Positions 9,984 through 26,062 of a stretch of 27,411 nucleotides of DNA are shown here, piece by piece. Each line of letters starts with the position of its first letter. Positions within the stretch are counted from its first letter, which is position 1. The position numbers and the translations under genes are program-made. This stretch comes from a virus, in the IMG/VR virus record IMGVR_UViG_3300020180_000106, positions 1 to 27,411 of that record; one strand, 5' to 3'. The notes beneath the pieces were generated by a model, which was not told where the DNA came from, made no database searches, and saw only the letters and a list, made by a program, of their open reading frames with translations.

Positions 9984-10102
9984 GCTTTACCTGTGGTCGG
10001 TAGAATTTTGTTCGGGGGCAACAAAGTGATGTGGACGCGGAGGGCCCTTATTCAAGATAGTCAATGATGGATTACATATCAAGTATAGAAGAGAGACCGA
10101 CC

Positions 10103-12568
10103 ATGAGAGAACGAAGAGCAGGCGAACAATTTGACCAGAACAATAAATCACACGTGGATCTAAAGAGAGTCTTGCCGAATGGCGCACCCCGAACAGGGAT
10201 GGGATCTGGAGACTTTGCTCAACTTGAGGCGGCACTCCACGACGCGGCGACAGGACGCCTTCCCAGGAACCCGGAAAGATTCCGATCCGATTTATTCAAA
10301 CTTGCGTATGGGTTCCAGAAGAAAGGTTCTGAGTTGGGTGGGATATTGAGTCTTCGCAAAGGAGATGTATTGTTTGGACCAGGATCCGCGACCGCGATGA
10401 TGCTGAATGATTCGCTTCAACGAGCACCTAAAGTCCGAGCTTTCGTAATCTCGGCGGCAGGTGAAGTTTCTAAGGGTGGGACAGATAGGCTGGTCATGGG
10501 AACTGTTCAATCTGTAGCTGAGAATTGTCTACCCCGGTCAGGTGATATCAAAAACTCAGTCCGTCAAGAAGTCTTAAAGCTAGCCGAGGGGACGCCAGCC
10601 GCAAAACGAATTGAAGCTTTGATTAGCCAGCAGGCCCACGAGTCTGGCTCGACAAACGCGGCATCCAAAACAGGCGGACATTTCAGTCGTATTGAAATAG
10701 TCAAAGCCGACGGTTTGAAGAAAAAAGTTGAATCGAGGGGGACGTATACCACCGTAACGCGAACAGATTTCCGCAAGGATGAACAGGAAGAAGAGATGGA
10801 AAAAAATCGCAAGACGGCCATCGAGAACGAAATCCAAGATACCATGACGGCCATCAAATACAAAATCGGACATGTGTCTAGATTGCACGCGAGTGCCCTA
10901 GCTCGTTTAATGGAAGCCGCAAAAATCGAGGAGGCGGTAGGTAAACTGGGCGCTCGACCTTATTGGAAAAGGAATCCCGGTTGGATCCATATGGAAGTAA
11001 CGAACCTCGGAGACTTGTATCGTCAGAGACGTGCGGACTATTCTCGTGTACGCGGTAATATTGAAGTAGAAAGGAAACGTCTTCTCGCTCATCTGGCCAA
11101 ATGGGAGGGCCTTCAAAGTATGGCGGGTGATAGCCCAAAGAAGTACCACAGTAATGACTTTCGTTCTCTTATCTCAAACTCTGGGGCATGGGCGGGAACA
11201 GTCGGGGCCGAGATCCGACGGACTCAAGATATGATTGCGGCTCTAGATAATCGTAAGAATAATAGCCTGACTCGGAAGTTTGATCGGAACAGATCCTATC
11301 TCGACAATCTAGCCGCAAGCCAAGTCACGGAACTTGTACGAGGAAAGAAAGATTCGATTGGCGATAAAGAAGGACGAACAATCGCCTCTCTATCTCGCGA
11401 TACACTCTTGGAAATTTACGACACTTATTTCGGTGATGGGTCAGCCCATGATGATTGGGACATGCGTCTTGGTGGACCAAAGGTTCGGATTCAAGTAGCT
11501 GAACGAGTTAAGGATGCAGTCCGGGATCACATCGAATCCATGTCGGACTTGTTCAAGACTAAGGGAGAAGGACCTTCCGCATTTGAAGAGGTTGACCCGT
11601 GGCAGAGACCAGACCGATTAGACCGACATGGTCCGTTTACTCAAGCGAAGTTTAAGGATTGGGGTACGCCATATTACAATGGCTCGAACTTTCCCGCGAC
11701 TCGATTTGAACGAGTAGGCGCTGGAACATTCACATACGTGGATGATTTGACAGGGAAGAAGGTTGAAGAGCAACGACAAATTGTCCGAGACTCGACAGGG
11801 CTAGTCGATCCCCATCGACAATTGAACTGGGTCACGGATAAATATCTCCGTGAAGAAGAAGATCGAGTAGGCCATTTCACAATCGTTGGCCCGAATGGGG
11901 AAAGACTCCCAAAGCCTAAGGAACTCATGACAGCAGTTGAAATAGCAAATAATGATCCTTCATGGAAACCTCAAGCTTGGGAATGGTACACCATGCAATT
12001 ACCCACGTCGTGGAAGCGAGCCTTGGGAACTTTGGAACAAATCCAGAAGGCGAACTCTTACCTGGGTGTACGGGAAGGAGTATTGTCTCTCCACCGATTC
12101 TTCCGCGAACACCCGACCGAACACTGGCCAATCCAAGCTCAGCCTCTTGTCCAACACATCGCCAGAGAAGCATTCTTTGCGGCGTCTACATTCGCAGATC
12201 CACATTTGGAATTCGAGCAGAACCGGGATGGAAGCCCAATCATTCCGACCGACCCAAACCAAATCTCCAAGACACTCACGACTTGGGTAAACCGAATCAA
12301 GGATGACCAGATGAGCACACGCGACTTCTGGGACCAGTGGTACGATACGACAGGCCGGAACTCTCAAAGTAGGAAAGATCTCCGTATGGGCGGCTCCAGA
12401 GCCCTTAGCGTAATCGGGAAAGTCGAGACGGCCAAAACAGAAACGTATGACTTTCATGGGGCAGAATCGGCCAGAGGAGATGATCTTGAAGACCGTGGGC
12501 ATAGCTCAGTAGACCAACAAATAGATAAGATGAGCACAAGGAAATGGAAAGACGAATCGGGTAAATAA
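10103..12568 (+). CDS. Large hydrophilic protein of unknown function
   Basis: An 821-residue, highly charged protein without membrane segments or signal peptide. The ATG at 10103 is chosen over one at 10064 because GAAGAGAG lies before it. Residues about 230-350 are Glu/Lys-rich and probably coiled; a YDTYFGDGSAHDDWDMRLGG region near 455 and a Trp-rich FRDF/WDQWYDTTGRNSQS segment near 755 are distinctive, but I recognise no family. It is divergent from the portal and ends at a strong terminator, so it is a stand-alone transcription unit. Given its location next to the structural operon it might be a virion or ejection protein, but nothing in the sequence proves this. Confidence 0.8.
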   Translation: MRERRAGEQFDQNNKSHVDLKRVLPNGAPRTGMGSGDFAQLEAALHDAATGRLPRNPERFRSDLFKLAYGFQKKGSELGGILSLRKGDVLFGPGSATAMMLNDSLQRAPKVRAFVISAAGEVSKGGTDRLVMGTVQSVAENCLPRSGDIKNSVRQEVLKLAEGTPAAKRIEALISQQAHESGSTNAASKTGGHFSRIEIVKADGLKKKVESRGTYTTVTRTDFRKDEQEEEMEKNRKTAIENEIQDTMTAIKYKIGHVSRLHASALARLMEAAKIEEAVGKLGARPYWKRNPGWIHMEVTNLGDLYRQRRADYSRVRGNIEVERKRLLAHLAKWEGLQSMAGDSPKKYHSNDFRSLISNSGAWAGTVGAEIRRTQDMIAALDNRKNNSLTRKFDRNRSYLDNLAASQVTELVRGKKDSIGDKEGRTIASLSRDTLLEIYDTYFGDGSAHDDWDMRLGGPKVRIQVAERVKDAVRDHIESMSDLFKTKGEGPSAFEEVDPWQRPDRLDRHGPFTQAKFKDWGTPYYNGSNFPATRFERVGAGTFTYVDDLTGKKVEEQRQIVRDSTGLVDPHRQLNWVTDKYLREEEDRVGHFTIVGPNGERLPKPKELMTAVEIANNDPSWKPQAWEWYTMQLPTSWKRALGTLEQIQKANSYLGVREGVLSLHRFFREHPTEHWPIQAQPLVQHIAREAFFAASTFADPHLEFEQNRDGSPIIPTDPNQISKTLTTWVNRIKDDQMSTRDFWDQWYDTTGRNSQSRKDLRMGGSRALSVIGKVETAKTETYDFHGAESARGDDLEDRGHSSVDQQIDKMSTRKWKDESGK

Positions 12569-12582
12569 TATAAGGGCAGACT

Positions 12583-12637
12583 AAAAGGGAGAGGGGGTAG
12601 GTAAGAGCTTCGCTCTTACCTACCCCCTCTCCCTTTT
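12583..12637. terminator. Strong bidirectional intrinsic terminator
   Basis: Positions 12583-12607 and 12613-12637 are exact reverse complements (25 pairs) around a CTTCG loop, followed by a run of T to about 12641 and preceded by AAAA on the other side. It ends the transcript of the 821-residue protein. Confidence 0.92.
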
Positions 12638-13410: not shown

Positions 13411-13435
13411 GAGGGTGACCATGTTGGTCACCCTC
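13411..13435 (+). terminator. Family-A intergenic hairpin, copy 1
   Basis: An 11-bp stem, 13411-13421 with 13425-13435, loop TGT, followed by TTCTCGT. It ends the coiled-coil gene and recurs before each family-A gene. The weak T-tract suggests either partial termination or 3'-end protection. Confidence 0.65.
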
Positions 13436-13476
13436 TTCTCGTCCGTAAGTATGTACCCAAAGTTGGAGATTGAAGC

Positions 13477-13675: not shown

Positions 13676-13700
13676 GAGGGTGGCCATGTTGGTCACCCTC
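13676..13700 (+). terminator. Family-A intergenic hairpin, copy 2
   Basis: Stem 13676-13686 with 13690-13700, loop TGT. Relative to copies 1 and 3 a G replaces an A in the left arm, converting one pair to G-U, so the fold is preserved. It is followed by TTCTCGT and a small GGGC-ATGT-GCCC hairpin at 13712-13723. Confidence 0.65.
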
Positions 13701-13741
13701 TTCTCGTCCCTGGGCATGTGCCCACAGTTGGAGATTGAAGC

Positions 13742-14155: not shown

Positions 14156-14213
14156 TGACCACACAGTAGATGACCACACAGTGGATGTTGTGAAAAAATT
14201 GAGTTGATCCAGT

Positions 14214-14259
14214 TTGCCCTGTGTAGGCACACACACCAGTTCAAGTCTGGTGGGGCGAC
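14214..14259 (+). ncRNA. tRNA-like minihelix 1 (class I)
   Basis: Acceptor-type stem TTGCCC (14214-14219) with GGGCGA (14253-14258, one G-U), T-arm CACCAG / CTGGTG around the loop TTCAAGT. No anticodon arm. It lies 45 bases upstream of the family-B gene at 14304. The linker after the stem is slightly longer (TGTGTAGGCACACA) and less regular than in other copies. Confidence 0.7.
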
Positions 14260-14261
14260 AT

Positions 14262-14303: not shown

Positions 14304-14579
14304 ATGAAGATTGAGATCGTCGAAGACGTGGACTTCAAGTGTCTGCGTGTTAAGGAAGGCGACATCGTCCTCCTTGAGATTACGCACGCGACGGGCGGTC
14401 GCGGGTTGAGCATGGCGCTCAACAAGGGAGATGAGTACTTCGTTGAGATTCCGTGTTTCATTTGTAAGAAGCTCTTCTGCGAGAACTCAGAATACCTCGG
14501 AACGATTAGGTTGGCAATTGAGGACGCGTGCCTTCAGAGGTTTGCGGATGCGTTCCGCGAGATGCTTATGCACGTCTAG
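14304..14579 (+). CDS. Family B small protein, copy 1
   Basis: A 91-residue protein starting MKIEIVEDVDFKCLRVKEGD, with TTGGAG before the ATG. Residues 1-55 are beta-rich and align closely with copy 2 at 15127 (FKCLRVKEGDI(V/I)LLEITH, LNKGDEYF). The C-terminal part is helical and shares RFADA(F/I)REM. It is probably a compact alpha/beta cytoplasmic protein. Preceded by tRNA-like element 1 and ACTTC hairpin 1, followed by a family-A hairpin. I recognise no known family. Confidence 0.75.
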   Translation: MKIEIVEDVDFKCLRVKEGDIVLLEITHATGGRGLSMALNKGDEYFVEIPCFICKKLFCENSEYLGTIRLAIEDACLQRFADAFREMLMHV

Positions 14580-14598
14580 ATGATTGTCAAGATATACA

Positions 14599-14623
14599 GA
14601 GGGTGACCATGTTGGTCACCCTC
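14599..14623 (+). terminator. Family-A intergenic hairpin, copy 3
   Basis: Stem 14599-14609 with 14613-14623, loop TGT, followed by TTCTCGT. The sequence is the same as copy 1. It precedes a small TGGGCA/TGCCCA hairpin and the ribosome site of the third family-A gene. Confidence 0.65.
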
Positions 14624-14664
14624 TTCTCGTGTCTGGGCATGTGCCCACAGTTGGAGATTAAACC

Positions 14665-15036
14665 GTGGCCAAGACTAAGTGCGCTGTGCGCACGATGACT
14701 GAAGACAACGTCAAGTTCGAAATGGAAACCGATCAGTTGATCGCGACCATCGTCGATCAGGTCGGTAACGAGCTCAGAGCCATCTGCGAACAGATGGCGT
14801 CAGGCGTGATGTCACTCGAATCAATAACGGAAATGTTCGAGTTCTGTACGAGGTGTCCCCGTGAGGCCTCATTAGAGGCGATGCTGAGAGAGAGTAACCA
14901 GTTGGATGTTCTATTCGAAGAGACGACTCTTCGAATCGGAGAGGAAATGAACCGGATTGAGGCGGACATCTTGGCTGACTCAAAGAGTCAGAAGGAGTAT
15001 TACACGCGAAATCGTGGATCTATTCACGAACAGTGA
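14665..15036 (+). CDS. Family A protein, long soluble copy
   Basis: A 123-residue protein with a GTG start; TTGGAG is 9 bases before it and the family alignment (MAKTKCAVRTMTEDNVKFEM) begins at that codon. It shares the first ~48 residues with the gene at 13742. Its C-terminal part differs: helical, acidic and with no membrane segment (LRESNQLDVLFEETTLRIGE). Thus one shared N-terminal domain carries different C-terminal modules in neighbouring paralogues. The stop codon lies in a small 7-bp hairpin (15021-15039). Function unknown. Confidence 0.75.
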   Translation: MAKTKCAVRTMTEDNVKFEMETDQLIATIVDQVGNELRAICEQMASGVMSLESITEMFEFCTRCPREASLEAMLRESNQLDVLFEETTLRIGEEMNRIEADILADSKSQKEYYTRNRGSIHEQ

Positions 15037-15040
15037 ATAT

Positions 15041-15083
15041 TCGCCTAGTGGCACACACACCAGTTCGAGTCTGGTGGGGCGAC
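15041..15083 (+). ncRNA. tRNA-like minihelix 2 (class I)
   Basis: Stem TCGCCT (15041-15046) with GGGCGA (15077-15082), linker AGTGGCACACA, T-arm CACCAG / CTGGTG, loop TTCGAGT. The acceptor differs from copies 6 and 8 (GACGCCT / GGGCGTC) by paired changes. It precedes the family-B gene at 15127. Confidence 0.8.
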
Positions 15084-15086
15084 ATC

Positions 15087-15107
15087 GTCTTCTCACTTCG
15101 AGAAGAC
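15087..15107 (+). promoter_or_regulatory. ACTTC-loop leader hairpin 2
   Basis: GTCTTCTC (15087-15094) pairs with GAGAAGAC (15100-15107), loop ACTTC, three bases after tRNA-like element 2. An ATG at 15112 follows, but TTGGAG at 15115-15120 places the real start at 15127. Confidence 0.8.
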
Positions 15108-15126
15108 ACTCATGTTGGAGATTCGC

Positions 15127-15435
15127 ATGTTCAAAGTTGAGATCGTTGAAGGCTTCGAGTTCAAGTGTCTGCGTGTCAAGGAGGGTGACATCATCCTCCT
15201 TGAGATTACCCATGGAGAGGGTGACTGTAGGCTCACTATGTCCTTGAATAAGGGCGACGAATACTTCCTCGACGTCCTGCATAACGTATGTGAGCTGATG
15301 TTCCGTGGAGACCAAGACGATCTGAAATACCTGGCGGAGGTTATGGAAGAGTACCACCTGAGTCGTTTCGCGGATGCCATCCGCGAAATGGTGATGCCGA
15401 CACGTGAGGTTGTCTTGTCAACCTCGGACTATTGA
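15127..15435 (+). CDS. Family B small protein, copy 2
   Basis: A 102-residue protein starting MFKVEIVEGFEFKCLRVKEG. The ATG at 15127 is taken because TTGGAG precedes it by 6 bases; an earlier in-frame ATG at 15112 lies before that ribosome site. It aligns with copy 1 for its whole length (about half the residues identical in the N-terminal 55) and adds a 12-residue C-terminal tail. After the stop is the sequence AGAAGTGATTCTCTAAAGG, identical to the 3' end and flank of family-C genes, which suggests that a family-C gene was lost here by recombination. Function unknown. Confidence 0.75.
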   Translation: MFKVEIVEGFEFKCLRVKEGDIILLEITHGEGDCRLTMSLNKGDEYFLDVLHNVCELMFRGDQDDLKYLAEVMEEYHLSRFADAIREMVMPTREVVLSTSDY

Positions 15436-15461
15436 TCAGGTTGCCCGAGAAGTGATTCTCT

Positions 15462-15491
15462 AAAGGTTGAGATGATATCATCTCAACCTTT
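15462..15491 (+). terminator. 30-base perfect palindrome after family-B copy 2
   Basis: Positions 15462-15476 and 15477-15491 are exact reverse complements (as RNA a stem of about 13 pairs with a tight loop). It is the family-C 3' hairpin type, with AAAGG / CCTTT ends, found also at 15999, 16830 and 18617. Confidence 0.7.
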
Positions 15492-15502
15492 CGTCATCCA
15501 TC

Positions 15503-15545
15503 ACGACTACTGGTGCATATCGCGGTTCGATTCCGCGAAGTCGTC
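15503..15545 (+). ncRNA. tRNA-like minihelix 3 (class II)
   Basis: Stem ACGACT (15503-15508) with AGTCGT (15539-15544), linker ACTGGTGCATA, T-arm TCGCGG / CCGCGA, loop TTCGATT. Against copy 5 (ACGACC / GGTCGT and TTGCGG / CCGCAA) one pair in each stem is changed on both sides. It precedes the family-C gene at 15588. Confidence 0.82.
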
Positions 15546-15547
15546 TC

Positions 15548-15568
15548 GTCTTCTCACTTCGAGAAGAC
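15548..15568 (+). promoter_or_regulatory. ACTTC-loop leader hairpin 3
   Basis: GTCTTCTC (15548-15555) pairs with GAGAAGAC (15561-15568), loop ACTTC. It begins four bases after the acceptor-like stem of tRNA-like element 3 and precedes GTTGGAGATCCAG and the ATG at 15588. Confidence 0.8.
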
Positions 15569-15587
15569 ACTCATGTTGGAGATCCAG

Positions 15588-15992
15588 ATGAAGATTCAAG
15601 TGACGACGTTCCACAATGTGACGATCGACTTCGTGTCCATGACGGACATGATCGAGTACGTCAAGGGGTATGCCGTCCGGCATCGCCAGTTGCCGAAGGC
15701 GATCCGGCTCAATGGTTGCCATGTGGCCATCGCTAACAAGATGGTCATGTGTGGAATGGCTTATTTGATCAAACCGACGCCCGGTGGAGACGGGTATTGC
15801 TTTGACCAAAAGGGTTACGAAAACTTCGTGGCCTTAGTCGGAGCGGGGAAGCGGAAGACTCCGCTTGAAGTGTGGAGGTTACGAAAGTTGGATCTCTGGT
15901 CCGACTTTCAGTGTATTGGGGTCATGCACCCCTGGCTCGAAATGTTTAAGGAGGATGTCGAGGACTATATCCAGACATTGATCAAGAAGTGA
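15588..15992 (+). CDS. Family C protein, copy 1
   Basis: A 134-residue protein starting MKIQVTTFHNVTIDFVSMTD. The four family-C members share an N-terminal strand, a helix ending in (H/Y)R.(L/I)PK (here YVKGYAVRHRQLPKAI), a central strand M.YL(I/V)K, the signature YC(F/L)......Y..F(V/L)..V..G.RK.P (YCFDQKGYENFVALVGAGKR), and an F..DVE.YI C-terminus. The pattern suggests a small alpha/beta protein. The ATG follows GGAGATCCAG. It is flanked by tRNA-like element 3 and a 30-base palindrome. No known family recognised. Confidence 0.8.
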   Translation: MKIQVTTFHNVTIDFVSMTDMIEYVKGYAVRHRQLPKAIRLNGCHVAIANKMVMCGMAYLIKPTPGGDGYCFDQKGYENFVALVGAGKRKTPLEVWRLRKLDLWSDFQCIGVMHPWLEMFKEDVEDYIQTLIKK

Positions 15993-15998
15993 TTCTCT

Positions 15999-16028
15999 AA
16001 AGGTCGAGATGATATCATCTCGACCTTT
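15999..16028 (+). terminator. 30-base perfect palindrome after family-C copy 1
   Basis: Positions 15999-16013 and 16014-16028 are exact reverse complements. It differs from the palindrome at 15462 by paired changes (GTTGA to GTCGA with TCAAC to TCGAC). Confidence 0.72.
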
Positions 16029-16049
16029 CATCCTGATTCCCACACACAC

Positions 16050-16079
16050 GAAGGGAAGGCGATTTATCGCCTTCCCTTC
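16050..16079 (+). terminator. 13-bp hairpin before small ORF
   Basis: GAAGGGAAGGCGA (16050-16062) pairs with TCGCCTTCCCTTC (16067-16079), loop TTTA. It takes the place that tRNA-like elements occupy in front of neighbouring genes and is 20 bases before the ATG at 16099. Confidence 0.6.
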
Positions 16080-16098
16080 TCTCATGACTGGAGATCAC

Positions 16099-16275
16099 AT
16101 GGACATTGGCATGATTGAGACAATTCTGGAAATGGCACTGTCTGAGCTGGGATCTCTCCGACTCCAGATTTCGATCTGGAGTTCTTTCATCTCAATGAAA
16201 GAACTCGAAGAGTTGATCATCCGTGAGCGGTTAGTTCGAGAGGACATTCGTCGTTACCAAAGGGAGTTAAGCTAA
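16099..16275 (+). CDS. Small helical protein, unknown function
   Basis: A 58-residue protein starting MDIGMIETILEMALSELGSL. The CTGGAGATCAC before the ATG at 16099 matches the ribosome sites of neighbouring genes, and earlier in-frame starts lack one. It is mostly helical, with a moderately hydrophobic first half and a charged second half (LIIRERLVREDIRRYQREL), possibly a dimeric helical hairpin. It has no visible paralogue in the window. It is preceded by a hairpin rather than by a tRNA-like element. Confidence 0.62.
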   Translation: MDIGMIETILEMALSELGSLRLQISIWSSFISMKELEELIIRERLVREDIRRYQRELS

Positions 16276-16281
16276 TACCAT

Positions 16282-16324
16282 TCGCCTAGTGGCACACACA
16301 CCAGTTCGAGTCTGGTGGGGCGAC
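16282..16324 (+). ncRNA. tRNA-like minihelix 4 (class I)
   Basis: Stem TCGCCT (16282-16287) with GGGCGA (16318-16323), linker AGTGGCACACA, T-arm CACCAG / CTGGTG, loop TTCGAGT; same sequence as copy 2. It precedes the family-C gene at 16368. Confidence 0.8.
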
Positions 16325-16327
16325 ATC

Positions 16328-16348
16328 GTCTTCTCACTTCGAGAAGAC
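16328..16348 (+). promoter_or_regulatory. ACTTC-loop leader hairpin 4
   Basis: GTCTTCTC (16328-16335) pairs with GAGAAGAC (16341-16348), loop ACTTC, followed by CTGGAGATCGAG and the ATG at 16368. Confidence 0.8.
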
Positions 16349-16367
16349 ACCCTGGCTGGAGATCGAG

Positions 16368-16823
16368 ATGAAGTACAAAACGAACTACGAAACGAACTAC
16401 AAGGTCACGACGGTCGGTGACGTGGTGTTGGAATTTAAAACAAAGGTGGAGATGGTGGAGTTCGTGAAGGCGTACGCCGCCAAACATCGGCGTCTGCCAA
16501 AGAGCGTCACGTCCGGCAGTTGGAAGGCGAACAGTGCTCAGATGTTGACATACGCAGAAATGGAATACATTGTCAAGACTGTCAGTGGTGACAGTTATTG
16601 CCTCAACTACGAGAGCTACTGTAAATTCGTAGCCTTAGTTGCGGTCGGAGCCCGCAAGGCTCCGGAACAGTTGATCTCGTTGGTCGAGGATCGTGGTTGT
16701 ACGTTTACCTTTAGTTCCACCAAGAATTTTGAAACGCAGGTCAAAGAATATATCGAGCAGGTACTGTCGCCCCTCACGCCAGAGCAACGTCTGGAGATGA
16801 TCCAGACATTGATCAAGAAGTGA
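16368..16823 (+). CDS. Family C protein, copy 2
   Basis: A 151-residue protein starting MKYKTNYETNYKVTTVGDVV, with a short NYETNY repetition at the N-terminus not seen in other copies. It carries the family helix FVKAYAAKHRRLPKSV, the strand MEYIVKTVSG and the signature YCLNYESYCKFVALVAVGAR. Its C-terminus has an added LTPEQRLEM-type helix, shared in part with copy 4 (LTPEQRVMY), and it ends MIQTLIKK like copy 1. CTGGAGATCGAG precedes the ATG. Mosaic sharing of C-terminal ends among copies suggests recombination between paralogues. Confidence 0.8.
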   Translation: MKYKTNYETNYKVTTVGDVVLEFKTKVEMVEFVKAYAAKHRRLPKSVTSGSWKANSAQMLTYAEMEYIVKTVSGDSYCLNYESYCKFVALVAVGARKAPEQLISLVEDRGCTFTFSSTKNFETQVKEYIEQVLSPLTPEQRLEMIQTLIKK

Positions 16824-16829
16824 TTCTCT

Positions 16830-16859
16830 AAAGGTCGAGACGATATTGTCTCGACCTTT
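16830..16859 (+). terminator. Hairpin after family-C copy 2
   Basis: A near-perfect 30-base inverted repeat (16830-16844 with 16845-16859) with one G-U pair. Compared with the palindrome at 15999, GATGA/TCATC is replaced by GACGA/TTGTC, so pairing is kept. Confidence 0.7.
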
Positions 16860-16871
16860 CGTCATCCCCTT

Positions 16872-16914
16872 ACGACCACTGGTGGGTATTGCGGTTCGAT
16901 TCCGCAAGGTCGTC
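16872..16914 (+). ncRNA. tRNA-like minihelix 5 (class II)
   Basis: Stem ACGACC (16872-16877) with GGTCGT (16908-16913), linker ACTGGTGGGTA, T-arm TTGCGG (16889-16894) / CCGCAA (16902-16907), loop TTCGATT. It precedes the family-C gene at 16957. Confidence 0.82.
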
Positions 16915-16916
16915 TC

Positions 16917-16937
16917 GTCTTTCTACTTCAGGAAGAC
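16917..16937 (+). promoter_or_regulatory. ACTTC-loop leader hairpin 5
   Basis: GTCTTTCT (16917-16924) pairs with AGGAAGAC (16930-16937) with one G-U pair and a changed closing pair; the loop is still ACTTC. This copy shows that the loop is more conserved than the stem. Confidence 0.8.
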
Positions 16938-16956
16938 ACTCATGTTGGAGATCCAG

Positions 16957-17478
16957 ATGAAGATTGAAGTGACGACGGGTCGCGGTGTTATGTCCTTCCA
17001 GTCCATGAGCGAGATGTTCGAGTTCACTAAAACCTATGCCCGTGTATACCGGCGTCTGCCGAAGAGGATTATGATCGACAACAAAGTTATCGATACACCT
17101 GGTCGCATGATCATGTGCGAGATGGTATATCTCGTAGAAACGATTAGCGGCTACACATATTGTCTCAACCGTTTTGAGTATGAGAATTTCGTGGAGTCAG
17201 TATCGAGAGGAGATCGCAAGGCCCCAGCGAGCGTATTAAAGTTAACTGACGCAGGGCCCGGATCGATGGTGCCATGGACCAGCATGTTCGATGAAGATGT
17301 GGAAGATTATGTCCGCCGTATCCTGGATAACGATAAATTCTCTTCGTGTCATTCCGCTATCGCACAGGACTCCAATACGCTTATAAGACTTCGACGGGCA
17401 TACCGAGGGTCATCGAGGGTCAGCCCAGTAGGGCACACGTACTGTAGATTCAGAAACTACGGAAATGGTCGTAGTTAA
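16957..17478 (+). CDS. Family C protein, copy 3, with divergent C-terminus
   Basis: A 173-residue protein starting MKIEVTTGRGVMSFQSMSEM. Residues 1 to about 128 follow the family (FTKTYARVYRRLPKRI, YCLNRFEYENFVESVSRGDR, FDEDVEDYVRRIL). After that, about 45 residues (FSSCHSAIAQDSNTLIRLRR...) match no paralogue, are Arg/Ser-rich and read like formerly non-coding DNA. The 3' palindrome of other copies is missing, and a decayed tRNA-like sequence lies within the last codons (around 17420-17475). A loss of the original stop and terminator, by frameshift or deletion, explains this best. The first part is probably still functional. Confidence 0.7.
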   Translation: MKIEVTTGRGVMSFQSMSEMFEFTKTYARVYRRLPKRIMIDNKVIDTPGRMIMCEMVYLVETISGYTYCLNRFEYENFVESVSRGDRKAPASVLKLTDAGPGSMVPWTSMFDEDVEDYVRRILDNDKFSSCHSAIAQDSNTLIRLRRAYRGSSRVSPVGHTYCRFRNYGNGRS

Positions 17479-17483
17479 AACCT

Positions 17484-17528
17484 GACGCCTAGTGGCACAC
17501 ACACCAGTTCAAGTCTGGTGGGGCGTCT
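17484..17528 (+). ncRNA. tRNA-like minihelix 6 (class I)
   Basis: A seven-base acceptor-type stem GACGCCT (17484-17490) with GGGCGTC (17521-17527), linker AGTGGCACACA, T-arm CACCAG / CTGGTG, loop TTCAAGT. It precedes the gene at 17571. Confidence 0.83.
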
Positions 17529-17530
17529 TT

Positions 17531-17551
17531 GCTCTTCCGAAGTGGAAGAGT
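17531..17551 (+). promoter_or_regulatory. GAAGT-loop leader hairpin 6
   Basis: GCTCTTCC (17531-17538) pairs with GGAAGAGT (17544-17551). The loop is GAAGT, the reverse complement of the ACTTC loop found in most other copies. TTGGAG and the ATG at 17571 follow. Confidence 0.78.
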
Positions 17552-17570
17552 ACTCAAGTTGGAGATCGAA

Positions 17571-17975
17571 ATGATCTGCATTGAAGCAAAATTGGTCGCT
17601 AGTGATGGCGACCTCGCTACGGGAGACAACGGGTACGCGATCTACCGTAAGGTAGATGGGGCGTACGTGGTCGTGTGCCACGGCCAAACGGCGGATGGGT
17701 ACACCGCCATCCGCCTTGATAATAAATTGAAAGATTCGAGTTTCTTGGCAGAATGGCTGCCCAAGAAAATCCAGGTCGAAGTCGGTGTGGATCATCACTT
17801 GGTGATCTACATCGCGTGTTGTTATAACGCGGGTGTCTCGGAGTACTCAAAGCTCCGACATCGAGAGTTTCCGAAAGGAGTGTGCATTCGTCGGGCCCTA
17901 CCATCAATGGTGGGGCCGGGAAGCCTTGGTGTGTTCGATTGGGGAATCACGATTCGAGAACTCAAAGGCGAATGA
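17571..17975 (+). CDS. Protein of unknown function (single copy)
   Basis: A 134-residue protein starting MICIEAKLVASDGDLATGDN, with GTTGGAGATCGAA before the ATG. The first half is strand-rich (YAIYRKVDGAYVVVCHGQT, GYTAIRLDN); the second half contains VEVGVDHHLVIYIACCYNAG and ends IRELKGE. I recognise no family and no catalytic motif. The coding sequence contains several perfect stem-loops, such as GGCGGATGG pairing with CCATCCGCC near 17691-17715. It lies between tRNA-like element 6 and a terminator-like hairpin, in the same array as family C. Confidence 0.7.
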   Translation: MICIEAKLVASDGDLATGDNGYAIYRKVDGAYVVVCHGQTADGYTAIRLDNKLKDSSFLAEWLPKKIQVEVGVDHHLVIYIACCYNAGVSEYSKLRHREFPKGVCIRRALPSMVGPGSLGVFDWGITIRELKGE

Positions 17976-18003
17976 CCGTAGTTTCAGCAATCTGTCCATT
18001 CAC

Positions 18004-18033
18004 GAAGGGTGAGTGCTTTCGCACTCGCCCTTC
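18004..18033 (+). terminator. 13-bp hairpin after the gene at 17571
   Basis: GAAGGGTGAGTGC (18004-18016) pairs with GCACTCGCCCTTC (18021-18033) with one G-U pair, loop TTTC. Downstream is a short tandem AGTTCGC/AGTTCCC stretch (18042-18067). Confidence 0.65.
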
Positions 18034-18083
18034 ACTCGTTCACAGTTCGCAGTTCCCAGTTCGCAGTCCACTTACATACACAC

Positions 18084-18101
18084 GCGGGCCGCAGTGCCCG
18101 C
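18084..18101 (+). promoter_or_regulatory. Short leader hairpin of family-C copy 4
   Basis: GCGGGC (18084-18089) pairs with GCCCGC (18096-18101), loop CGCAGT. It stands where ACTTC-loop hairpins stand in other leaders; no tRNA-like element precedes this copy. Confidence 0.55.
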
Positions 18102-18115
18102 ACATGGAGATTACG

Positions 18116-18610
18116 ATGAAGATTGAAGTGACGACGGCTCGTGGTGGTGTGGTTCTGTTCGAGTCTATGGGCGAGATGTTCGAGTTCGCTAAGAACTATG
18201 CGGCCAAACATCGAATGATCCCTAAGGGGATCACGGTTGATGGCAAACCTTTGGACGTCGCCGGTCGCATGATTATTTGTGAAATGACTTACTTAATCAA
18301 GACCGCTCACGGTGAGACGTATTGTCTCACTCAAAAGGATTACAAAAACTTCTTGGCTTTGGTGGCGGTGGGAGCTCGCAAGGCTCCAAAGGGTGTGTCC
18401 AAGCTCATTGACAAAGAACTTGGTTCCATGATGGCCTACACGGCCATGTTCGATCAGGACGTAGAAGGCTACATACGTCATTCACTGACGGCACTGGCCG
18501 TCCTCACACCGGAGCAACGTGTCATGTACGAGGCTGAGGTGGCATATAAGAAAGCCAAGGCTGTCGCCGATGACGCCCTGGAGCGTCTCGAGGCGTTACG
18601 CAAGAAGTGA
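18116..18610 (+). CDS. Family C protein, copy 4
   Basis: A 164-residue protein starting MKIEVTTARGGVVLFESMGE; the ATG at 18116 follows ATGGAGATTACG and aligns with the starts of the other copies. It has FAKNYAAKHRMIPKGI, MTYLIKTAHG, the signature YCLTQKDYKNFLALVAVGAR and FDQDVEGYIRHSL. It then has a long helical tail (LTPEQRVMYEAEVAYKKAKA...) ending in a Lys-rich helix. It is the longest and perhaps most complete member. It is most similar to copy 3 at the N-terminus and to copy 2 in the C-terminal LTPEQR segment. Confidence 0.8.
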   Translation: MKIEVTTARGGVVLFESMGEMFEFAKNYAAKHRMIPKGITVDGKPLDVAGRMIICEMTYLIKTAHGETYCLTQKDYKNFLALVAVGARKAPKGVSKLIDKELGSMMAYTAMFDQDVEGYIRHSLTALAVLTPEQRVMYEAEVAYKKAKAVADDALERLEALRKK

Positions 18611-18616
18611 GCATTT

Positions 18617-18642
18617 AAAGGTCGAGACGATTCTCGACCTTT
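18617..18642 (+). terminator. 11-bp hairpin after family-C copy 4
   Basis: AAAGGTCGAGA (18617-18627) pairs with TCTCGACCTTT (18632-18642), followed by T. It is a shortened form of the family-C 3' palindromes. Confidence 0.7.
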
Positions 18643-18652
18643 TGTAACTCCT

Positions 18653-18693
18653 ACGACCACTGGTGTATCGCGGTTCGATTCCGCGAGGTCGTC
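18653..18693 (+). ncRNA. tRNA-like minihelix 7 (class II)
   Basis: Stem ACGACC (18653-18658) with GGTCGT (18687-18692), linker ACTGGTGTA, T-arm TCGCGG / CCGCGA, loop TTCGATT. This is the shortest copy at 41 bases. It precedes the small gene at 18736. Confidence 0.82.
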
Positions 18694-18695
18694 TC

Positions 18696-18716
18696 GTCTT
18701 CTCACTTCGGGAAGAC
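18696..18716 (+). promoter_or_regulatory. ACTTC-loop leader hairpin 7
   Basis: GTCTTCTC (18696-18703) pairs with GGGAAGAC (18709-18716) with one G-U pair, loop ACTTC, followed by GTTGGAGATCGAG and the ATG at 18736. Confidence 0.8.
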
Positions 18717-18735
18717 ACTCTAGTTGGAGATCGAG

Positions 18736-18888
18736 ATGGTTCCGAACAGTGTTGTTGAGCGGTTCGAGAAGCTCGTGGCGTTGCTGGAGATCCTAAGGAC
18801 AACAGATGTCGATCGGGAGCTGATCGAACCCATGATCGAGGAATTGGAGGTGCTGTGGCACCAGATGATCTACGGAGATCCTTCATAA
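18736..18888 (+). CDS. Small acidic helical protein, unknown function
   Basis: A 50-residue protein starting MVPNSVVERFEKLVALLEIL and ending HQMIYGDPS. It is acidic and appears as two helices with a hydrophobic face, a size and pattern common in phage host-takeover or anti-restriction miniproteins, although no such identity is visible. The gene has the full standard leader: tRNA-like element 7, ACTTC hairpin, TTGGAG at a good distance. That shared leader supports it as a real gene despite its length. Confidence 0.7.
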   Translation: MVPNSVVERFEKLVALLEILRTTDVDRELIEPMIEELEVLWHQMIYGDPS

Positions 18889-18897
18889 CTAAAACCT

Positions 18898-18942
18898 GAC
18901 GCCTAGTGGCACACGTCGGGGTTCAAGTCCCCGAGGGCGTCT
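18898..18942 (+). ncRNA. tRNA-like minihelix 8 (class I)
   Basis: Acceptor GACGCCT (18898-18904) with GGGCGTC (18935-18941), linker AGTGGCACACG, T-arm TCGGGG / CCCCGA, loop TTCAAGT. The acceptor is identical to copy 6 while the whole T-stem is replaced (CACCAG / CTGGTG there) with pairing intact. Confidence 0.85.
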
Positions 18943-19654: not shown

Positions 19655-20130
19655 TTAGTAAGGGGCTACGCCTCTCTGCTACGCCTCGTGCGCCTCCCTT
19701 TGTTGTTGTTGGCTGGCTACGCCAGGGGTCTGGTGACGGTACTCGTTGGAGGCTTGGGCGAAGCCATTGTGCTACGCCTCGTGCGCCTCCGTTAGTGTTG
19801 GCTACGCCTCGTGCGCCTCCGTTAGTATTGGCTACGCTACGCCAGGGGTATGGTGCTAGCGGCTATTCGATGGTTTGGCGAAGCCATTGTGCTACGCCAT
19901 GGGTGTGTCGTGGCGGTGTTGGCTGGCTACGCTACGCGCGAAAGTCTGGTGGCGGTGGCTATTCGATAGTTTGGCGAAGTCCGAGATGATCGGTATTGGG
20001 AATGCGTGAGGTGAAAAGTACTCATCTGTAGATGAGTCCATGGTTCTAGGGTGTGCTACGCTCAGGTCGAGCTACGCGCGCGTCTAACGAATCGTTAAGC
20101 TTGGGCTATCTCCGGGTCGCCTTTCCCATT
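19655..20130. repeat. Mosaic repeat region rich in gctacgc
   Basis: No convincing gene lies here. The heptamer GCTACGC or its extensions occur about ten times between 19665 and 20080. A 30-base direct tandem occupies 19771-19800 and 19801-19830, each beginning with GCTACGCCTCGTGCGCCTCC. GGCGAAGCCATTGTGCTACG occurs twice (about 19758 and 19873), as do GCTATTCGAT-GTTTGGCGAAG and CGCCAGGGGT-TGGTG. An ATG frame (19651-19989) spans it but only translates the repeats (ATPRAPP). The style resembles short interspersed repeats of some cyanobacteria. Confidence 0.7.
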
Positions 20131-20328: not shown

Positions 20329-20375
20329 TCGAAACGGGCTAGTGGTGAAATGCTTTTCACCCCGTTGTGAGTATG

Positions 20376-20414
20376 AGAAGAAGGGAGAGGAGCTACGCTC
20401 CTCTCCCTTCTTCT
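20376..20414. terminator. 18-bp terminator
   Basis: Positions 20376-20393 and 20397-20414 are exact reverse complements with loop TAC, followed by TTCATTTAT. It ends the transcript of the small membrane protein and perhaps of the whole array. Confidence 0.85.
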
Positions 20415-20510
20415 TTCATTTATAATCGTCATGTCGATAGGTGATACAAAATATAACATCACCTGAGAGGCGTGAGGTAAAAAGTATTTTTCCTAAAAGA
20501 ATCTGATGTG
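20415..20510 (+). other. AT-rich intergenic region with imperfect operator-like dyad
   Basis: No gene. AGGTGAT ... ATCACCT (about 20440-20465) form a 7-bp dyad around an AT-rich 12-base centre and may be a promoter/operator for the gene at 20706. GCGTGAGGT(A/G)AAAAGTA here (about 20470) also occurs near 20005, upstream of the previous gene. Confidence 0.4.
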
Positions 20511-20571
20511 TTGGTGACTCCCGGAATGGCCGGGGATCAAGAGATCAGGGGTTCGAATCCCCAGTCACCAA
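20511..20571 (+). ncRNA. tRNA-like element 9, with D-arm and stunted anticodon arm
   Basis: Acceptor TTGGTGA / TCACCAA, or TGGTGAC (20512-20518) with GTCACCA (20564-20570); D-type arm CCCGG-AATGG-CCGGG (20520-20534); a tiny arm GATC-AAGA-GATC (20535-20546); T-arm GGGG-TTCGAAT-CCCC (20548-20562). The third arm has a four-base loop, so no anticodon can be assigned. It appears intermediate between a true tRNA and the minimal elements. Confidence 0.75.
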
Positions 20572-20583
20572 TGGCGGAATGGG

Positions 20584-20705: not shown

Positions 20706-22931
20706 ATGGCTCGTCAAGCGTACTCGTCGGAAAACTCGTTCGTCTTCTTCGGCCCAGAGGGACATCCGGTCAAGAAGGCGTTGAGGAAGAAATTCCCCAA
20801 CGCCCTGTCGTACCGGTCGGTCGGTGTGAAAGTGTTTCACGCCACCGACGGTAGCCGCTTCGATGTGAAGACGATCAAGGATGGCGACATCCTGGTCGTC
20901 AAAAAGGGAGATCAGATTCCAGTCGTACCGATGTGCGACCTCGAGCCGCAAGGCTCGAGCGCTAATTACACTTTCCATCTTGTGGCGAATTGGATGGGCA
21001 AACGTCTCCCAACCGCCTCGGAAACGGGCGGTTGGAAGTTCGGCCCAGTACAGAGCGGAGAAGACTGGGCTCGTCCCGGTCAGTTCTTCGAGCAATGCGA
21101 CCTGCGATATTTGGCGTGGTTGGCGGCTTGCGGCCCAATTGGATTCCGGATGGACGAATTCTTGTTCTCCGCCGAACGAGAGGTCTCGGCCGGAAGGCTG
21201 GATCACGCACGGGGGTTCGTCCCCCTGTTCAAGAAGAATAAGGACGGCTCGGTGATGACCGAGCCAAACAGTTTGCACGACAACCTGTGGGCATACATCA
21301 ATGCCCACCCCGCTGTTGGACGCGTGGTTCGGGAATGGCAGAACTTGTTTGGCCTACAGGCCGACTACGGTCAATATGCCAAATTCGATAGTTTCGCCCC
21401 TGGACTGGATACCAGTCCGGATGAGGAGAGGCAGACTCTACCGCCCCACCTTCGATCTGGAAACGGTGGAGGTAAACGTCGCCCGCTCCATTGGATGGAC
21501 GGGTCGGACTTCGCCCCCAAGAGGCGAAAAGTGAGCCGCCGAAAGGAGGCGTCGGAAGACGACGCCAGGTCGCCCTGGCTCACCGTCGGAATGGTTCAGT
21601 GTCCCGGCGACCTTCGACGCAAAGCCAACGCTGAAGAGTCGGGAATCATTCCGCGATCGGATAAGGGTGGCTCCATCCAGTTCTCAGGATCGAGTCTCCG
21701 TGAGGGACTCGAGGCGGACTGGTCGCCGGGACCACTCCAATTGAACGAGTTCATCAACGCTTGCAAACGACGGGGCTACGTCACGGGGGTCCTTACGACT
21801 TCCGTTGAGCTCCAAATGATTCAGAAGCCCATTCTTGGAAAGAATGGGCTTCCCATCAAGGCCCAGGGTCGCGTCCTCACAGAAGACGTGGTGCTGACAC
21901 GCAAGTTCGTATCTCCTGAGCTCGCATGGATCAACGAGCGGGTGTTAGTGCCCGCAGAAGATTTTCTCCAGTATGCGATGGAAATCCGTTCAGAAGATGT
22001 TACGGAGTTCGATTACACGCGGGCATTAAATGGCCCGTCCCCATCACCGGAAGAAGGGCAAGGCGAATCGATGGTCCTTTTGGACCCGATAGTTTTGACG
22101 GATCAGTACTTCAATTATACGGTTAAGTTAACGGCCCCATGGCCGGATGAAATCCTCGCTGTCCAGAAGCAAGGGAAAATGTTCCTCTTGGACACCGTTG
22201 TCCAAGCCGACTGGATCATCGAGGAGGATGTCGAGGTCGGCGTCCATTCACGAACGCTACAGGTGGCAAAGAAAGATGGAGAGGTGATCGGAGCATTCCC
22301 GATCATCGGTGATTACAAGCGAGACAACGACGGTTCATGGATCGACCATGAGTCATGGGACGCATACCTGCGTCTCTTGTCAGATGCCCGATCGCTAGCC
22401 GGAGCTGTCCGCGAGGTATCAGGCTTGCTCCCGATTGTCGGACGGTTCTCAGAATCGGGAAAGGAATGGACGGAGTTGGAACGGGCGGAGATCGCCCGTT
22501 CCCAACTCGAATCGATCAAAGCTTCAGGCGCGCGTCTCAAGCTCGGATACTACCTACCCAAGGAGGGTGGTGGAATCGATTTCAAATCCTATGTGGACCG
22601 TCCAGAATTCTGTAAGCTCCTCATGGACGTCGTCTCCTCTGCCGAAGATACGATTGAGTATCGCTGGCCAGTGGGAAAAGAGGCTCCCGTCTTCAAGTCT
22701 CCTCCTCCGGAGACGGTCCAAGTCGAATGGACGGTCTTCTCAACCTGGAAAGAGAGTCGTGAGAAGAAGGTTCGTCAGGTCCGGTTCGACGGGGTGATCC
22801 CCGCGAACGATCCGGAAGCCTATGAAGGCCCCGGACGGAGGCTCTCCGGGGCCCGGAAGGCGAGCGTGACCACAACGAAGGTCACGCCTTCGAACAAGTT
22901 GAGGGAGCGGTTCTCCCTCGCTAAGAAGTAA
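20706..22931 (+). CDS. Large protein of unknown function
   Basis: A 741-residue soluble protein starting MARQAYSSENSFVFFGPEGH. I recognise no domain. Visible parts: a beta-rich region (residues 1-100), a Trp/Arg-rich helical region (100-260), a basic low-complexity linker (about 265-310, KRRPLHW...PKRRKVSRRK), a second folded half with EFINACKRRGYVTGVLTTSV and WPDEILAVQKQGKMFLLDT segments, and a basic Ser/Thr tail. Its coding sequence is unusually rich in perfect stem-loops (for example 21824-21852, 22479-22501, 22901-22919). The leader has tRNA-like element 9, an ACTTC-type hairpin and a hairpin-bridged ribosome site. It ends at a 21-bp terminator. Confidence 0.8.
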   Translation: MARQAYSSENSFVFFGPEGHPVKKALRKKFPNALSYRSVGVKVFHATDGSRFDVKTIKDGDILVVKKGDQIPVVPMCDLEPQGSSANYTFHLVANWMGKRLPTASETGGWKFGPVQSGEDWARPGQFFEQCDLRYLAWLAACGPIGFRMDEFLFSAEREVSAGRLDHARGFVPLFKKNKDGSVMTEPNSLHDNLWAYINAHPAVGRVVREWQNLFGLQADYGQYAKFDSFAPGLDTSPDEERQTLPPHLRSGNGGGKRRPLHWMDGSDFAPKRRKVSRRKEASEDDARSPWLTVGMVQCPGDLRRKANAEESGIIPRSDKGGSIQFSGSSLREGLEADWSPGPLQLNEFINACKRRGYVTGVLTTSVELQMIQKPILGKNGLPIKAQGRVLTEDVVLTRKFVSPELAWINERVLVPAEDFLQYAMEIRSEDVTEFDYTRALNGPSPSPEEGQGESMVLLDPIVLTDQYFNYTVKLTAPWPDEILAVQKQGKMFLLDTVVQADWIIEEDVEVGVHSRTLQVAKKDGEVIGAFPIIGDYKRDNDGSWIDHESWDAYLRLLSDARSLAGAVREVSGLLPIVGRFSESGKEWTELERAEIARSQLESIKASGARLKLGYYLPKEGGGIDFKSYVDRPEFCKLLMDVVSSAEDTIEYRWPVGKEAPVFKSPPPETVQVEWTVFSTWKESREKKVRQVRFDGVIPANDPEAYEGPGRRLSGARKASVTTTKVTPSNKLRERFSLAKK

Positions 22932-26017: not shown

Positions 26018-26062
26018 AACGATCAATGGAACCAAACGGGGTTCGAATCCCCGTGATCGTTC
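26018..26062 (+). ncRNA. tRNA-like minihelix 10
   Basis: Seven-pair acceptor AACGATC (26018-26024) with GATCGTT (26055-26061), linker AATGGAACCAA, T-arm ACGGGG / CCCCGT, loop TTCGAAT, which is a fully canonical T-loop. Both stems are unrelated in sequence to classes I and II but the plan is the same. It precedes the gene at 26119. Confidence 0.87.

Follow-up and report, generated by a model that had tools for sequence, protein, structure and literature searches.

Transfer RNAs (tRNAs) and tRNA-like structures can serve as signals inside longer transcripts. In mitochondrial tRNA punctuation and in the t-elements of plant mitochondria (PMC4919922), tRNAs or tRNA-like structures lying between cistrons are cut by tRNA enzymes, which makes the ends of the messenger RNAs (mRNAs). 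E. coli RNase P RNA cleaves model hairpins consisting of acceptor and T-arm (PMC11143913), and the model substrates of this kind (AT1/pMini, McClain/Altman; PMC11143913) have the acceptor stacked on the T-stem, a tRNA T-loop and no anticodon arm. Among phage RNAs that are not tRNAs, the C4 antisense RNA of P1/P7 and the M3 RNA are also RNase P substrates (PMC11143913), while the tRNA-like mascRNA/menRNA (RF01684) is itself processed by RNase P, and the tRNA-like domain of transfer-messenger RNA (tmRNA) retains the tRNA elbow with a reduced D-arm. Here we describe a class of tRNA-like elements of about 42 nucleotides (nt), found between the genes of numerous phages of soil bacteria and of a linear IMG/VR virus record (IMGVR_UViG_3300020180_000106), the analysed 27,411 bases of which are referred to as the window. 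The elements differ from each of the described systems. The mitochondrial structures are organellar, near full-size and known to be cut, whereas cleavage of the much shorter phage elements is a prediction; AT1/pMini are laboratory constructs, whereas the phage elements are natural, lie inside mRNAs and add an 11-nt connector, a GG docking loop and a pseudoknot. The C4 and M3 RNAs are single RNAs of another fold, not repeated between cistrons, mascRNA/menRNA belongs to the 3′ end of a mammalian long noncoding RNA, has a short anticodon-like arm and no intercistronic role, and the tmRNA domain is part of a large alanine-charged RNA, unlike the separate, short elements found here.

The minus strand of the window encodes HK97-type head and portal proteins, and the plus strand carries a block of small genes of unknown function, in which the element copies discussed below (numbered 1–8, all on the plus strand) are located. 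Copies 2–8 are half-tRNAs composed, in this order, of an acceptor strand, a connector of 9–11 nt, a six-base T-stem strand, a perfect seven-base T-loop (TTCGAGT, TTCAAGT or TTCGATT), the second T-stem strand and the second acceptor strand. Copy 2 (15041–15083; TCGCCT AGTGGCACACA CACCAG TTCGAGT CTGGTG GGGCGA C) begins 4 nt past the stop codon at 15036, and a hairpin (GTCTTCTC-ACTTC-GAGAAGAC, 15087–15107) separates it from the Shine-Dalgarno sequence TTGGAG of the gene starting at 15127. Copy 4 (16282–16324), the core of which is identical to that of copy 2, copy 6 (17484–17527), which forms a 13-bp (base pair) stacked helix, and copy 8 (18898–18941), which has a replaced T-stem, stand upstream of the ATG codons at 16368, 17571 and 18986, respectively. 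Copies 3, 5 and 7 constitute a second type (type B). Copy 3 (15503–15545, connector ACTGGTGCATA) is followed by a hairpin, TTGGAG and the ATG at 15588, while copy 5 (16872–16914, acceptor ACGACC...GGTCGT) and copy 7 (18653–18693), the 9-nt connector of which is two nt shorter, precede the ATG codons at 16957 and 18737.

The original prediction claimed that paired changes in both stems of these copies reveal selection on RNA structure and not mere duplication. The underlying letters proved to be correct: between copies 3 and 5 the acceptor changes from ACGACT/AGTCGT to ACGACC/GGTCGT (a T-A pair to C-G) and the T-stem from TCGCGG/CCGCGA to TTGCGG/CCGCAA (C-G to T-A), copies 6 and 8 share an unchanged acceptor while the T-stem CACCAG/CTGGTG is exchanged for TCGGGG/CCCCGA with full pairing kept, and the outer acceptor pair is T-A in copy 2 and A-T in copy 6. 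In the alignment of the seven copies, all 72 stem cells (100%) were paired compared with 79.0% after shuffling of the 3′ letters (none of 500 shuffles reached the observed value), and two-sided changes occurred in 14 cells, affecting 7 of the 12 pairs. The claim was borne out both by the window copies and by homologues from other viruses, which also extended it by the breadth of the class, a fixed placement between stop and start codons and a pseudoknot.

Homologues were collected from 2.9 million viral contigs by patterns of the connector and the T-loop, which placed no requirement on the stems. Nevertheless, at least 9 of the 11 stem positions were paired in 205 of the 221 distinct matches, and Watson-Crick pairs were seen 201 times at the T3 position and 193 times at A2, compared with the 71 and 70, respectively, that independence of the two sides would give. 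A dereplicated set of 61 such elements, all from other viruses, showed pairing in 91.5% of the cells versus 54.7% upon shuffling, with a covariation score of 0.857, which dropped to 0.185 in shuffles and to at most 0.225 when the partner was slid by one to three columns. Aligning these homologues revealed 239 compensatory cells as against 57 unpaired ones among 671, i.e. unpaired substitutions did not keep pace with the paired ones. Mismatches in otherwise paired elements were G.U in 38 cases and A.C in only 5 (p 2.5e-7). The tolerance of G.U but not of A.C indicates that the target of selection is the coding-strand RNA, as opposed to a symmetric DNA palindrome or the opposite strand. Each element is therefore a structured RNA on the coding strand, the fold of which is kept while its letters change.

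A covariance model trained on these 61 elements only, with the window excluded, recovered copy 8 (expectation value, E, 9.2e-12), copies 2 and 4 (both 5.4e-11) and copy 6 (5.9e-10), and also a weaker copy 1 located ahead of the range given in the original prediction (14213–14260; 29.4 bits, E 7e-6), which has a G.U in the outer acceptor and a 14-nt connector, with a gene start near 14305 downstream. Copy 3 (E 0.011), copy 7 (E 0.15) and copy 5 scored low, because the connector of type B is different and this type was outside the training set. The type B pattern was found at twelve further phage loci, ten of which shared the fold, in most cases followed by a hairpin and a start codon. A divergent element on the plus strand at 26018–26062 (E 0.005) has a 13-bp stack, a connector AATGGAACCAA with the GG at the same place as in the other copies, and a hairpin behind. 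In 1.41 megabases of related loci, a stem-loop descriptor detected 339 elements as opposed to 0.5 in shuffled sequences and 0–2 with changed T-loop motifs. Viruses related to that of the window, identified through the portal protein, showed only 23–27% identity, and the descriptor found no elements in them; BLAST with one window element gave no match among deposited phages, and two of the loci (L009 and L020) had no close match there. Another class with a 12-nt connector (AGCTGGTGNTTA) and the loop TTCGATT was noticed in phages of 42–53% GC (L170–L181), where the element is again followed by a hairpin, a Shine-Dalgarno sequence and ATG, and the R-C past the helix is not conserved.

The part of the fold that makes it tRNA-like is also constrained. 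When a scan prescribed only the two stems and left loop and connector free, a tRNA T-loop was present in 149 of the 188 matches, and 148 of these 149 had GG at connector positions 4–5. To detect tertiary contacts, mutual information was computed for a dereplicated set of 155 elements. Because paired stems, as well as C at T-loop position 3 and A at position 5, were conditions for inclusion, the stem counts of this set are biased, which does not apply to the additional pairs described next. Connector positions 2 and 8 (con2:con8) covary through all four Watson-Crick forms (CG/AU/GC/UA), as do con9 with loop position 7 (AU/GC/CG/UA) and con10 with loop position 6 (CG/GC/AU/UA), these three pairs being formed in 94.8% of the cells versus 63.6% in shuffles, and the signal disappeared when the columns were slid. 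Furthermore, con4 and loop position 2 switch jointly from G/T to A/G, at the place equal to G18-Psi55 of tRNA. The covariation of connector and T-loop shows that a tRNA-like elbow is under selection. The acceptor and T stems stack as an 11–13-bp helix under a tRNA T-loop cap, the 11-nt connector forms a one-pair mini D-arm (con2:con8), the GG of which is docked on T-loop positions 55/56 (the G18/G19-Psi55/C56 contact), and T-loop positions 59/60 pair with another two bases of the connector, generating a two-pair pseudoknot that locks this minimal tRNA elbow. To our knowledge, such a two-pair pseudoknot is absent from tRNA. Window copies 2, 4, 6 and 8 have all of these contacts, while the type B copies and the 26018 copy have them only in part, con10:loop6 not being obeyed in type B. 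The stack comprises 12–13 bp in the window copies and 11 bp in most other elements, in which N-1:N73 is unpaired. Right past the helix, R-C was found in 135 of the 155 elements, low-GC phages included, matching R73-C74 of tRNA; the base after it can be any, A being the commonest in low-GC phages, and the elements of high-GC phages have a 5′ G.

The position of the elements relative to the genes proved to be similarly fixed. The usual order is stop codon, element, hairpin, Shine-Dalgarno sequence and start codon, with a median of 9 nt from the upstream stop to the element and of 43 nt from the element to the next start. Placement before a start codon with a Shine-Dalgarno sequence was found for 139 of 203 elements versus 19 of 203 in the antisense control, and in all 27 loci that have three or more elements, these lay on one strand, the gene strand. 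Thirteen elements of Endor2 and Lika, two annotated Streptomyces phages, occupy intergenic gaps, most of them 6–18 nt past a stop and all 33–52 nt ahead of the next start. The leader behind the element is folded (mean z −2.18); in the window its hairpin is GTCTTC...GAAGAC, followed by TTGGAG. The gene block of the window showed no promoter excess and is flanked by strong terminators on both sides, a bidirectional one ahead of it (12587–12633) and a terminator-like hairpin on the plus strand (20375–20415), which closes the element-carrying block. These features fit the block being transcribed as a single RNA.

RNase P clamps the tRNA elbow and reads the distance from there to the cleavage site (PMC4919913), and in the bacterial enzyme a GGU pairs with RCCA of the substrate (PMC4919922). 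Since the conserved parts of the elements (the elbow, the stacked helix, the 5′ G of high-GC phages and the R-C) are those read by tRNA enzymes, we favour processing by RNase P: the elements probably are RNase P sites between cistrons, a phage version of mitochondrial tRNA punctuation. They combine the T-loop consensus and the GG contact of an elbow mimic on a stacked acceptor/T helix, and, like punctuating tRNAs and t-elements, they stand between cistrons in sense orientation on what appears to be a shared transcript. The long phage transcript would fold its mini-tRNAs, and host RNase P would then grip the elbow, measure to the acceptor end and cut at the 5′ side of the element, possibly accompanied by an RNase Z cut at the 3′ side. 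Each cistron would thereby become an mRNA of its own with a structured 5′ end, the upstream mRNA would end a few nt past its stop codon or past its own hairpin, and stability and expression could be set separately for each gene. For the broader proposal, namely that a widespread, phage-specific, pseudoknotted elbow of ~42 nt recruits host RNase P and punctuates mRNA gene by gene, with the hairpin as the guard of the new 5′ end, we regard the chances as evenly balanced. Several observations weigh against RNase P processing. The cleavage itself is a prediction, and with a stack of 11 bp most non-window elements fall one pair short of the 12-bp distance that RNase P reads in tRNA, which makes the predicted cut position uncertain. 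The third 3′ base is not C, so RCCA is kept only partly, type B lacks the R-C, and N-1 is usually A instead of the preferred U. In addition, a ribosome that terminates translation of the upstream gene would be expected to cover the start of the element and to compete with its folding.

The main rival is a translational role at the stop/start junction. According to this explanation, the elements are elbow mimics that are not cleaved; as binding sites for the ribosome or for a protein that recognises the elbow (TruB, EF-Tu, the CCA-adding enzyme or RNase Z), they would govern termination-reinitiation from one gene to its neighbour or shield the ends of mRNAs. The elbow is indeed the conserved part, and translational coupling is decided in the region that the elements occupy (median distances of 9 nt from the preceding stop and ~43 nt from the following start); however, the conserved R-C right past the helix would have no obvious role, and coupling could be blocked by a simple hairpin alone. 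We consider this explanation rather unlikely. Still less probable is a function in trans, in which the element, once excised, would be a small RNA and serve as a decoy of a host tRNA enzyme or of a tRNA-targeting defence nuclease, its intergenic place serving transcription only. The presence of many almost identical folds in a genome (a single record had up to 15 matches) and the tRNA-like features without an anticodon would suit a decoy, but the tight, conserved distance of the element from the following start codon, together with the neighbouring hairpin, indicates a role in cis, and the stem sequences diverge freely.

Explanations without a functional RNA fare considerably worse. Phage attP attachment sites often contain tRNA 3′ halves, which, together with the repeated intergenic placement, could speak for a feature of the DNA, such as inverted repeats for recombination of gene modules, attachment sites or transposed tRNA fragments. 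This is very improbable, since the stems pair though they share little sequence, G.U is tolerated and A.C is not, loop and connector show tertiary covariation, and the elements always lie on the gene strand. The asymmetry of G.U and A.C, the strand bias and the tertiary covariation were likewise the grounds for rejecting a decayed tRNA, attP, a transposon and a DNA palindrome; the “tRNA-like” sequence in the paper on Halovirus HF2 is an attP tRNA fragment. The least credible explanation is a single intergenic cassette that was duplicated and retained its pairing through recent common origin: copies 2, 4 and 6 do have a common T-stem and a paralogous family occurs among the downstream genes, but the 14 two-sided changes in the window copies and the 239 in unrelated phages argue against it.

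A single consensus query matched 461 places in at least 150 deposited actinophage records (113 with Streptomyces, 26 with Mycobacterium, 10 with Gordonia and 1 with Arthrobacter as host), and of the matches in the 40 records listed, only one lay outside unannotated gaps. Among 296 actinobacterial genomes sampled, the only positive one was the seed itself, and a strict pattern was found in 7 of 11.3 million genome contigs, where as many as ten matches lay close together on a single contig, an arrangement reminiscent of prophages. In several loci (L032, L037, L049 and L059/L167), belonging to large-genome phages and an Amycolatopsis genome, elements followed by GGC-rich degenerate repeats (GGCACGGCATGGC...) were observed. 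ARAGORN predicted 0 tRNAs in the window and, in the related loci, made no call at any element except one false tRNA-Arg in Endor2; this annotation (L017 8124–8206; MT711979.1 44378–44460) is a miscalled element of the mini-tRNA class. In phage Sitrop, a tRNA-Arg annotation is likewise present in the matching region. Rfam gave only sub-threshold or irrelevant matches in the window, no Rfam family covers the elements, and the matches that reached the gathering level in 10 loci were restricted to four genuine tRNAs located apart from the elements. Except for the Endor2 miscall, the elements were called as cloverleaf tRNAs (RF00005) neither by ARAGORN nor by Rfam, and the RF01684 model gave 31.7 bits for copy 8, below the gathering threshold of 42.5, placing it outside that family. 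In the literature searched, which mostly did not include subscription journals and bioRxiv preprints, no paper describing tRNA-like elements between phage cistrons was found. While tRNA-like structures and RNase P substrates are known kinds, a phage-wide, intercistronic, pseudoknotted minimal elbow appears to be undescribed in the sources available.

Other structures accompany the elements in the window. Near-perfect palindromic hairpins (AAAGGTCGAGATGATATCATCTCGACCTTT) directly follow stop codons at 15462–15491, 15999–16028, 16830–16859 and 18617–18640, three of the four standing ahead of type B elements; they may shield the 3′ end of the upstream mRNA. In other leaders of the gene block (about 13411–13437, 13677–13704 and 14598–14624), a hairpin of the AGAGGGTGACCA-TGT-TGGTCACCCTCT type replaces the element. 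Four paralogous proteins of unknown function (15588–15992, 16368–16823, 16957–17478 and 18116–18610) are each encoded behind an element or a hairpin leader; three members were scanned without a Pfam or PHROG match, and no relatives of the family were detected in viral contigs. Two large open reading frames (ORFs), 10064–12568 (834 amino acids, aa) and 20706–22931 (741 aa), also had no Pfam or PHROG match. The spacer ahead of the terminator at 20375 contains degenerate GGCTACGCCTCGTGCGCCTCC repeats (19660–19990). Behind this terminator, a larger tRNA-like cloverleaf with the T-arm GGGG-TTCGAAT-CCCC and an 11-bp acceptor was found on the plus strand at 20509–20573 (z −3.73), upstream of the 741-aa ORF; it has a five-base loop with TGG and a four-pair T-stem, and is at most a candidate relative of the elements.

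If the above interpretation is true, the elements represent a natural minimal tRNA mimic, present in hundreds of copies in phage genomes and overlooked by annotation pipelines, and their pseudoknotted elbow would be a new way of building the tRNA corner in roughly 40 nt. Phages would then split their operons into single-gene messages via the tRNA-processing ribozyme of the host, as mitochondria do with full tRNAs. Since laboratory phages that infect Streptomyces coelicolor or Mycobacterium smegmatis carry such elements, this idea is directly testable.

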